Assembly: GCF_000496835.1 (NCBI RefSeq)
Contig: NZ_KI543237.1
Location: forward strand, 970,641 to 1,034,640
From: Thalassobacillus devorans MSP14
Lineage (GTDB): Bacteria > Bacillota > Bacilli > Bacillales > Halobacillaceae
DNA: 64,000 nucleotides
Reading direction: 5' to 3'
The notes below the pieces were generated by a model. It did not search any database. It was not told where the DNA came from and saw only the letters and a program-made list of their open reading frames with translations. Shown piece by piece: positions 29,466 through 32,173 of the stretch. Each line of letters starts with the position of its first letter. Positions within the stretch are counted from its first letter, which is position 1. The position numbers were made by a program, and so were the translations under genes.

Positions 29466-30209
29466 TTGAAACCATGGATCGGAGTCACTGTCCATATCGA
29501 TGAAGGAAAAGAAGATGATTTATACCCCAGGCATCCATTGTTGTATGTAGAACGTGATTACATTCAAGCGTTAGAAGCCCATGGTATGCACCCTGTACTG
29601 CTTCCAGTATTGGATAGAACAGAAGATGTTCCAGCTTATCTAGCCAAGTTGGATGGCCTCCTCATGACTGGCGGGGGCTACCTTAATCTCAATAAACCAT
29701 TGTCTGTTTCTACTAAGCTGAGTGAAACTGGCAGTACGCGTTTTACGTATGAGAAAGTACTGTTGAAAAAGGCGGTTGAAATGGGGCTGCCTGTACTGGG
29801 AGTGTGCCGTGGAATGCAAATGATAAATGAAGTATATGACGGCACATTGCAAAACCTTAAAACCAGCCACCACCACCAGGAAGTGATGGGGATGGAAGGA
29901 TCGGTCCCTACGCACCGTATAACGCTTGAAGAATCCAGTAAACTTTCAAAAATGATTGGCCATCATCCACTTCAAGTCAATTCCAGACATCGTCAGGTGA
30001 TTTCTGAGATAGGAAAAGGTCTCAAGCCTGTAGCCTGGTCTGAAGACGACCTTTTCATAGAAGCGATCGAAAGCGACGATGAAAATTGGTTATTGGGACT
30101 GCAGTTTCATCCCGAACAGCTCTATTTGGTCGAGCCAAGGTGGTCGTTGTTATTTAACGCTTTTAGAGATGCGGCGTTGCAATATAGTCATTCTAAAGCT
30201 TATTCCTAA
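29466..30209 (+). CDS. Class I glutamine-amidotransferase-like hydrolase (peptidase C26)
   Basis: 247 residues. The nucleophile elbow LGVCRGMQMIN (Cys near residue 117) and the LGLQFHPEQ motif supplying His and Glu make a full catalytic triad. The N-terminal opening MKPWIGVTVHIDEG and the GLLMTGGG loop fit the gamma-glutamyl-GABA hydrolase (PuuD) group. This suggests hydrolysis of a gamma-glutamyl amide or similar amide brought in by the adjacent permease. TTG 29466 is used because AGAGGTGAT lies 5 nt upstream and no ATG is in frame. Last gene of the transporter arm. Confidence 0.87.
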   Translation: MKPWIGVTVHIDEGKEDDLYPRHPLLYVERDYIQALEAHGMHPVLLPVLDRTEDVPAYLAKLDGLLMTGGGYLNLNKPLSVSTKLSETGSTRFTYEKVLLKKAVEMGLPVLGVCRGMQMINEVYDGTLQNLKTSHHHQEVMGMEGSVPTHRITLEESSKLSKMIGHHPLQVNSRHRQVISEIGKGLKPVAWSEDDLFIEAIESDDENWLLGLQFHPEQLYLVEPRWSLLFNAFRDAALQYSHSKAYS

Positions 30210-30259
30210 TATTGGATGGTGGCTTGGTTTCCGTTTGAGAACCCTCTATCCAATCCCCT

Positions 30260-30292
30260 AAAAGCCCGGCGATCGCCCGGGCTTTTCTTTTT
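30260..30292 (+). terminator. Terminator of the permease-hydrolase operon
   Basis: AAAAGCCCGG pairs with CCGGGCTTTT around CGATCGC, followed by CTTTTTAT. Confidence 0.92.
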
Positions 30293-30323
30293 ATTGCTAT
30301 ATCTTTTCCCTGGCACGGGTATG

Positions 30324-30365
30324 TTCTGCCCTAACTCAGTCATGTTCTGACTTAACGCATTCGGC
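30324..30365 (+). repeat. Degenerate 21-bp repeat, two units
   Basis: TTCTGCCCTAACTCAGTCATG is not written in full here; its first unit starts at 30324 and the second, TTCTGACTTAACGCATTC, at 30345, exactly 21 bp later. Same unit as at 12242-12362 and 57098-57139, again just past a terminator. The 100 bp between this and the next element show nothing recognisable. Confidence 0.7.
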
Positions 30366-30473
30366 AATACTTCAATCATTTCATTTGGTGAGTAATTCCT
30401 ACAATTGTTAAACTAAGTCACATAGATAAACTTGTTGATTTTCCTAAGAAGCTTTTTCAACTATTGGGCCGTA

Positions 30474-30818
30474 TTGTGGAAGACTCAGTTTCAAGGTTCT
30501 TTACCATAAAAGCGTTAGGGGTGGCTTGGAAACTACTCGCTTTCCAGCTTCATCGCCTAGACACTCGCGACATAAGCAGTCCATCAACGGGAAGAAAGAA
30601 CACTTCCCTTTTGCTGTTCTGCTTATGCGTGTCGTGTCTCCCAAGGCGATTGCGCATTCGTTTCTTTCCTGTGGGGGACCTGGCGAGCTTCCTCGGGCTA
30701 TCGCCCTGCGGGATCTTGCCTAGCTCCTTCTCCCGCGGGAGTCTCGCAGTTTCCCAACCACCCCATCCGAAGGATGGGAGTAACGAACCCCTGCGATAAA
30801 TGAAGACGTCTTCCACAA
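30474..30818. repeat. MITE-like stem-loop element, copy A, with 11-bp terminal inverted repeats
   Basis: The ends TTGTGGAAGAC and GTCTTCCACAA are perfect inverted repeats. Inside, GGGGTGGcTTGGAAACT pairs with the complement near 30745-30770. A nested hairpin (CGACATAAGCAG on the left, CTGCTTATGCGTGTCG on the right, 30560-30650) lies within the loop. Copy B at 30871 carries the same outer sequences in opposite orientation. No transposase and no credible coding. Open frames here are stem complements, not genes. No clear target duplication was found. Confidence 0.75.
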
Positions 30819-30870
30819 CTCATATGTAACCATGGTGCAGGTTATAAGCAGGGTTTTAAAAAAGCTCTTC

Positions 30871-31078
30871 TTGTGGATGAAAGGTTGGGTACGCATACCA
30901 AGCAAGGAGGGCCGGGAAATTGCGAGACTCCAATGGGAGGATAGGACATGTGAGATCCCGCAAGGCGGAGCCTGAGGAAGCTCACCGTCCACCCATGGAA
31001 AGCGAGTGATTTCCCGGACCTCCAAACGCCCATCACCATAACGGAAAACAGTTTCTCTCGAAACTGAGTATTCCATAA
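30871..31078. repeat. Stem-loop element copy B, inverted relative to copy A
   Basis: It runs from TTGTGGATGA to TATTCCATAA, a degenerate version of copy A's ends. Shared parts are GGGAAATTGCGAGACTCC, GATCCCGCAAGGCGG, GAGGAAGCTCACCG and GGAAAGCGAGTGATTTCC, which occur as reverse complements in copy A. It lacks copy A's nested hairpin, hence the shorter length. GGAGG-CCGGGAAAT pairs with ATTTCCCGG-CCTCC. Similar GCGAGACTCC elements are common in Bacillaceae (from memory). Confidence 0.75.
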
Positions 31079-31141
31079 AAGGGAGCTTAACTGTAGCATC
31101 AACACTGAGATATAACAGAATTAATTTTCAAAAGAAAGAAG

Positions 31142-32173
31142 ATGAATAAAATGAGTATAGAACATAAACAAATGCATGAAATTCCGTTTTCGGTGCTGGA
31201 CCTCGCACCGATTGTAGAAGGCGGGACACCAGCAGATGCCTTTAAAAATATGATCGAACTTGCCCAGCATACAGAAGAATTGGACTACAACCGATATTGG
31301 ATGGCAGAGCATCATAATATGCCATTCATTGCGAGCTCGGCTACATCTGTATTAATTGGTCATGTCGCTGAAAACACGTCAAGAATCCGGGTCGGGTCTG
31401 GCGGCATCATGCTTCCGAACCATGCGCCATTGGTGATCGCTGAACAGTTTGGCACATTAGAGTCTCTTTACCCAGGTCGAATCGATCTTGGTCTTGGACG
31501 CGCTCCTGGTACAGACCAGATGACTGCCCAGGCGTTGAGACGGGGACGTAGAAGTGATGGTCAGGATTTCCCGCAACTCTTACAGGAATTAAGGGCCTAT
31601 TTCGATCCTTCGTTAGCAACGAGCCCAACACCTATCCGTGCCGTCCCTGGTCAAGGGTTGGATATCCCTATCTGGCTGTTAGGTTCGAGTGGTTTCAGCG
31701 CGCAGCTTTCCGGTCAGCTTGGTTTACCGTTTTCCTTTGCCAGCCACTTTTCACCAAATAATACAATGGCCGCGCTTGACTTATACCGCCGCCACTTCCA
31801 GCCGTCTGAGACACTTGAGAAGCCACACGCCATGCTAGGCTTGAATGTGATTGCGGCTGAAACAGATGAAGAAGCGGAGTATCTGGCAACCTCGCTGTAT
31901 CAGCAGTTCCTGAATTTGATACGCAACGATGAAGCACCATTGCAGCCTCCTGTAGAAAATATGGACGAGCTATGGTCTCCGCATGAACATGCGGCACTCC
32001 AGCAACAGCTGGGAGCTTCTATTATCGGAAGTAAGGAAACTGTCAAACAAAAGCTGGAATCATTCATCGAGGAAACAAAAGCAGATGAAATCATGGTCAC
32101 TTCCCAAATCTATGATCATCAAAAGCGGCTTCGTTCGTTTGAAATTGTAGCAGAGATTGTGAATGGAAAATAA
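31142..32173 (+). CDS. LLM class flavin-dependent oxidoreductase (luciferase-like)
   Basis: 343 residues, a bacterial luciferase-type TIM barrel. Characteristic parts are [52 protein letters not shown] and [17 protein letters not shown]. This subgroup (YceB-like in B. subtilis) has no defined substrate and uses FMN or F420-like flavin chemistry. The Shine-Dalgarno is weak (AAAGAAAGAAG), and ATG 31151 is an equally possible start. It is a single gene between the hairpin elements and a bidirectional terminator. Confidence 0.9.

Follow-up and report, generated by a model that had tools for sequence, protein, structure and literature searches.

The stem-loops A and B at positions 30474-31078 of the window, by which we mean the whole 64,000-nucleotide stretch of Thalassobacillus devorans MSP14 DNA that was analysed, are, as judged by sequence comparison, the two arms of one gene-less, presumably parasitic DNA element that occurs many times in this halophilic bacterium and has a smaller hairpin repeat nested inside it. 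We consider it very probable that this element is a non-autonomous DNA transposon of the IS1595 type, because insertion sequences (ISs) of the IS1595 family in other Bacillales share its ends and its target duplications. The element family was most likely spread by an IS1595-type transposase.

Results

An earlier note on this DNA had described A and B as an inverted, head-to-head pair of stem-loop copies, one of them bounded by perfect 11-bp terminal repeats. Both halves fold better than every shuffle (A, all 100, z -7.50; B, all 200, z -4.31), and B is indeed a reverse-complement relative of A. However, the identical A-then-B order and orientation recurs throughout the genome, which rules out two inverted copies, and we therefore treat A and B as arms of a single unit. 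When the 124 bp at 30546-30669 of A are omitted, the B half (30871-31078) matches the reverse complement of the A half in 78 of 104 columns, in agreement with the claim that B lies in the opposite orientation and lacks A's inner hairpin. The 11-bp repeats, TTGTGGAAGAC (30474-30484) and GTCTTCCACAA (30808-30818), are exact reverse complements as reported, but they are internal to the element; homology between copies continues past them, which excludes them as transposon ends. The copies share boundaries near 30417 and 31122, which places the ends 57 bp (left) and 44 bp (right) beyond those given in the earlier note. The element, of type I (interior ordered as in the window), is laid out as follows.

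30417-31122, + strand: whole element, type I with insert, 706 bp (end alignment over 49 copies of this genome; locus empty in genomes G003 and G004)
30417-30442, + strand: left terminal inverted repeat, eroded, consensus GGCTCTGTTAAACGTTGTTGATTTTT (end comparison of copies)
30443-30485, + strand: left outer arm, holding TTGTGGAAGAC at 30474-30484 (motif also inside the IS at locus L248)
30486-30545, + strand: 5' part of the A core, with CTTTCC at its end (copy catalogue and alignment)
30546-30669, + strand: inner hairpin module, 124 bp, with CTTTCC at its end (in 30 of 49 copies of this genome; copies without the insert join at CTTTCC)
30670-30757, + strand: 3' part of the A core (copy alignment)
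30758-30905, + strand: less conserved middle, holding GTCTTCCACAA at 30808-30818 (copy alignment)
30906-31020, + strand: B core, inverted relative of the A core (copy alignment)
31021-31085, + strand: right outer arm, complementary to the left arm (copy alignment)
31097-31122, - strand: right terminal inverted repeat, eroded, consensus read inwards GGCTCTGTTAAATCTCAGTGTTGAT (end comparison of copies)

The longest listed ORF inside the element is 118 aa, compared to 350 aa for the IS1595 transposase, and by this measure of length the element has no transposase gene. In its surroundings (30260-31142), a terminator-like site behind a Peptidase_C26 gene (29466-30209) is followed by the element and then by a luciferase-like gene that starts 20 bp past it. 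The element may have cut this gene off from its promoter or become its leader. Terminators were seen near several copies.

Searches of the genome with A and B as queries gave 75 and 58 matches, respectively, at E <= 0.001, many of them adjacent and in the same order and orientation; each search scored 40 first-look candidates (of 116 for A and 115 for B), and these counts are lower bounds. At least 49 copies were catalogued, besides one four-unit array of inner-hairpin relatives. The order is that of the window in 38 of the 49, whereas the remaining 11 (type II) have the interior reversed relative to the ends. Thirty copies carry the inner hairpin (20 of 38 type I and 10 of 11 type II). Both ends could be placed in 43 copies, 42 of which measure 575-802 bp and one 444 bp, and the copies sit in unrelated intergenic surroundings.

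With the whole element as query, 39 of 61 genomes, this one included, gave matches at E <= 1e-5; the genome that holds the L248 IS (G014) has 23. Four of the five Thalassobacillus genomes have many matches, while G002 has none at the thresholds used. A pattern scan for the inner hairpin returned at least 100 stretches, and all 80 listed loci fall in Thalassobacillus or Halobacillus, a result that is silent on other genera. A strict end pattern matched in only 2 of 121 genomes. The element had no match among plasmids and phages, nor did its 60-nt consensus end or the tandem hairpin array among plasmids. The earlier note had named copies found only here, or copies sharing no boundary, as outcomes that would speak against it; the opposite was observed, with many copies, common boundaries and occurrence in related genera. 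Contig G000:C1 ends 26 bp past the last match of an element copy, and palindromic repeats of this kind may break assemblies.

The ends were defined from copy C2:224271-224833 of this genome, for which a T. devorans empty site exists (L109), and from the better kept copy C1:1014492-1015066. The left end is GGCTATGTTAAACGTTGTTGATTTTTT and the right end, in the inward direction, GGCTCTGTTAAATCTCAGTGTTGAT; the consensus ends are GGCTCTGTTAAA...GTTGAT inverted repeats, and the target duplications beside them are 8 bp long and mostly A/T. The flanking 8-mers agree at 7-8 of 8 positions in 6 of 43 copies of this genome (two at 8/8), compared to 3 of 1,806 mismatched left-right pairs, with the other 37 copies below 7/8. 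Mean flank agreement peaks at length 8 (0.41 vs 0.31), with differences of -0.04 to 0.06 at lengths 4-7 and 9-12; allowing a shift of up to 2 bases weakens the contrast (14% vs 2.4%). Among relatives, nine copies were checked, eight from the 17 loci L062-L078, picked for visible ends, plus L211. Six of them, from four genera, have perfect 8-bp duplications (L063, L069, L072, L073, L075, L076), while the other three agree at 6, 3 and 2 of 8 bases.

At the window copy, whose ends are eroded, no clear duplication is seen, and its type was assigned through its relatives; both the target duplications and the terminal inverted repeats common to IS1595-family ISs are thus features seen at the level of the family. 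Its locus is empty in G003 and G004 and occupied in G001. The empty sites join cleanly.

A search with the PF12762 profile identified three loci in 2 of 44 family genomes, two of which have GGCTCTGTTAAA ends, 1,619 and 1,999 bp apart, with perfect 8-bp duplications. For the IS proteins, the NF033547 profile (IS1595 family transposase) scores 205 and 212 bits. Those of L246 and L248 match NF033547, NF050000 and PF12762, and so have the zinc-binding N-terminus and DDE domain, and a 90% protein match on a Pontibacillus plasmid is annotated 'IS1595 family transposase'. A further 103-aa, hydrophobic-rich ORF (2150-2461) lies between the transposase gene and the right end of the IS1595 element at L246. 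Across the order, an IS1595 protein query gave matches in 86 of 299 genomes at E <= 1e-20, many of them fragments or interrupted by stops. For each of 33 IS loci (31 distinct) we took the best end pair, allowing at most 3 mismatches over 12 bases. Such ends with 8/8 duplications occur at 22 loci (20 of the distinct ones), 3 loci agree at 6-7 of 8, and 8 gave no end pair with a duplication. IS1595 members are described as usually producing 8-bp duplications (PMC8101967), and those of ISApl4 as mostly A/T-rich, with IS ends beginning GG (PMC12561309).

The IS1595 ends match those of the element over the first 12 bases and further in; positions 1-77 of the L248 IS align with positions 1-79 of the L075 element at 82% (E 5.6e-15). 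Just behind its transposase gene, L248 also carries the palindrome TATCTCGATACTGAGTCTTCC...GGAAGACTCAGTTTCGAGATA, which is the element's arm motif. Either the element arose from an L248-like IS, or both acquired the same hairpin. The IS ending in TTGTGGAAGAC that the earlier note had expected did not materialise in that form, as the motif is internal, though present inside this one matching IS. Its proposal of a non-autonomous mobile element, on the other hand, is supported: the copies share boundaries and terminal inverted repeats, 8-bp duplications and empty sites were observed, and one IS family ends in the same way. Profile and protein searches found no IS1595 transposase in this genome, nor did the profile search find one in the four other Thalassobacillus genomes.

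The inner hairpin, put at about 120 bp in the earlier note, is a separate module of the element, 124 bp between two CTTTCC direct repeats. The window insert is 93-98% alike to 29 others in this genome. In the type II copy C1:854025, the insert is found in the B core at the corresponding CTTTCC, and the module is therefore not confined to one core; in a T. cyri copy (L124) it is doubled in tandem. Diverged relatives also occur outside any element, as four head-to-tail units with a period of 123 (G000:C1:867128-867608, L091) and as single units at L092 and L093. The L093 relative adjoins a second sequence beginning CCAGCTCCAGCGCC, which resembles another hairpin subfamily. A second, different insertion of about 60 bp was observed in the B core of C3:397829 and C2:722434 in this genome and of L207, the window locus in T. 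cyri, between GACTCCT and GTGGGA and with TCCT at both junctions.

Mean pairwise identity among 36 copies (35 type I copies and C1:854025) is 0.96 for the insert, 0.91-0.93 for B, 0.80-0.88 for the A core, 0.74-0.86 for the arms and about 0.4 for the end repeats, a value partly lowered by alignment at the eroded edge. The window copy is 93% identical to copy C1:292878 of the same genome over most of the interior. Compared to its same-locus counterpart in T. cyri, 30321-30485 matches at 89% and 30950-31260 at 83%, whereas in the inner part 97 columns match at only 74%. At L162 and L133, the insert is present at the T. cyri locus and absent in this genome, and the surrounding subtype changed too. 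The insert difference at L160 involves a cut-off insert together with another subtype, and was left out of the clean events. Because interiors look homogenised while ends decay, these patterns suggest gene conversion between copies as the simplest reading, although separate insertions could also account for the differing interiors of orthologous loci. The earlier idea of growth by hairpin insertion is supported in part: the insert may be present or missing at CTTTCC, one copy has it in the opposite core, and a T. cyri copy has two. Some of its spread, however, resembles gene conversion between copies.

Two opposed cores make the interior a near-palindrome, and a single strand is able to fold as one giant hairpin (30432-31117) from which the inner hairpin branches off. 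Its folding energy is -308.8 kcal/mol, with z -13.35 relative to 20 shuffles, and z is -9.68 on the opposite strand. Across 106 distinct aligned inserts, pairing in the stems is kept through many double changes, such as U-A/C-G at columns 25/118 and G-C/A-U at 64/79, while G.U and A.C mismatches number 14 and 17 in 2,645 cells. When the pairs in the giant arms are taken from the window copy, 35 type I copies have 504 G.T and 511 A.C cells; of 190 positions, 15 have G.T as their commonest pair and 14 have A.C. Aligning the arms copy by copy (43 copies) gives G.T slightly more often than A.C (462 vs 397; type I, 411 vs 331; type II, with the interior reversed, 51 vs 66), which points to the same interior strand in both types. 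Neither the insert nor the arms fixed on the window copy show a clear preference for G.U over A.C on one strand. In copy C1:173252 (locus C1:171768), the left arm has been rewritten as the exact complement of the right arm, and L110 has an inverted loop, outcomes expected of template switching in a hairpin. Searching 30200-31200 against Rfam gave five matches at E up to 1, four on the upstream terminator region and one in B, none of which reached the gathering score. One promoter-like site was found in the region, past the element's end, no more than in shuffles.

Discussion

The earlier note had also raised the possibility of a structured RNA family, and a large regulatory or small RNA gene family whose stems are selected as RNA would account for the very stable folds of A, B and the whole, for the more extreme z on the + strand, for the strong double changes in the insert stems and for the slight per-copy G.T excess. 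A selected RNA should, however, show a clear G.U excess on its strand, and the balanced counts in the insert and in the fixed-pair arms do not. With no Rfam match at gathering score, a sole promoter-like site outside the element and at shuffle level, and terminal repeats and 8-bp duplications that would be unexpected for an RNA gene, we judge this explanation very unlikely. The covariance analysis recommended in the note did reveal co-varying insert arms, but the balance of G.T and A.C mismatches favours upkeep as DNA, and we infer that hairpin symmetry is maintained at that level rather than as a selected RNA.

As for the mode of spread, partner transposases were searched for in the ISL3, IS6 and IS1595 families. 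Movement by an ISL3 or IS6 enzyme, with the likeness to IS1595 ends being superficial, draws on the ISL3 copies of genome G013, which also begin GGCTCT and sit in T runs. No ISL3 was found in this genome, however, and where ISL3 loci do occur, in 8 of 44 family genomes, the element's ends are not seen flanking the gene. The IS6 search (PF13610) gave only weak matches, above the cut-off in 2 of 44 genomes. Given also the agreement with IS1595 ends over the first 12 bases and further in, either of these two families is a highly improbable mover. The three ISL3-family copies of G013 (L214, L221, L228) have GGCTCTAGAATATTTGTTGGGG ends, all in T runs. Least probable of all, to the point that we hardly credit it, is an ancestral element that has not transposed in these lineages and spreads only through recombination or segmental duplication. 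Such a history would suit interiors that are more similar than the ends, a window-locus interior replaced between species, and five Thalassobacillus genomes in which the transposase was not found; it does not suit unrelated intergenic surroundings, clean joins at empty sites, or perfect 8-bp duplications in T. cyri and three other genera.

Under the IS1595-type reading, the transposase of an IS1595-family IS would have recognised the GGCTCTGTTAAA...GTTGAT ends and moved the element in trans, leaving 8-bp duplications at A/T-rich sites, with the 124-bp hairpin module placed within a core at its CTTTCC. As searches of the present host yielded no such transposase and its copies have decayed ends, these are most likely resident relics; recombination between copies would then keep their interiors similar, most of all in the insert. 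The element is presumably selfish rather than in the service of its host. A more elaborate version, which we offer only tentatively, is a parasite on two levels: an IS1595-type skeleton that has lost its transposase and persists by recombination, and a palindromic interior, with its nested, tandem-prone 124-bp hairpin, that is copied between copies and cores and re-perfected by DNA template switching.

The element shares with IS1595-family ISs (L246, L248, L250 and others) the GGCTCTGTTAAA...GTTGAT ends and 8-bp, mostly A/T duplications, as well as the subterminal homology seen in the L075 element and, in one IS, the arm palindrome; unlike them, it lacks a transposase gene and is built internally as one giant, modular palindrome. 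Compared by published description, the RUP of Streptococcus pneumoniae is likewise a gene-less intergenic repeat tied by shared ends to an IS, IS630-Spn1, but it is 107 bp, targets TA and depends on another transposase family (PMC2229807). Correia/NEMIS elements of Neisseria, in the same description, also have long and short forms that differ by internal sequence, of 155 and 107 bp with a 50-bp internal segment (PMC2229807), whereas the present element is mostly 575-800 bp and has a 124-bp self-folding module with solo and tandem relatives. Bcr1, Bant and Bhal of Bacillus are also repeated stem-loop sequences of Bacillus-type genomes, set apart here by description rather than sequence, at 72-167 bp in the table of that paper (PMC2267715). 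Classical bacterial MITEs are given as about 100-200 bp (PMC2229807); the element works like a MITE but is larger. A title and abstract search of the open-access literature, with subscription papers outside its scope, found no description of it. A transposase-less, IS-dependent element is of an ordinary kind; what sets this one apart is a family that we did not find described, a partner family that could be identified and an unusual modular palindromic interior.

An intergenic repeat that had been unexplained, frequent in Thalassobacillus and shared with Halobacillus and further genera, thereby becomes a transposon family assigned to a named class of transposase, and its mobility can be tested. 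With dozens of copies per genome at various stages of decay, it becomes possible to measure how recombination or template switching maintains long palindromes. The ends and modules also allow annotators to mark such regions as elements instead of spurious ORFs or RNAs.
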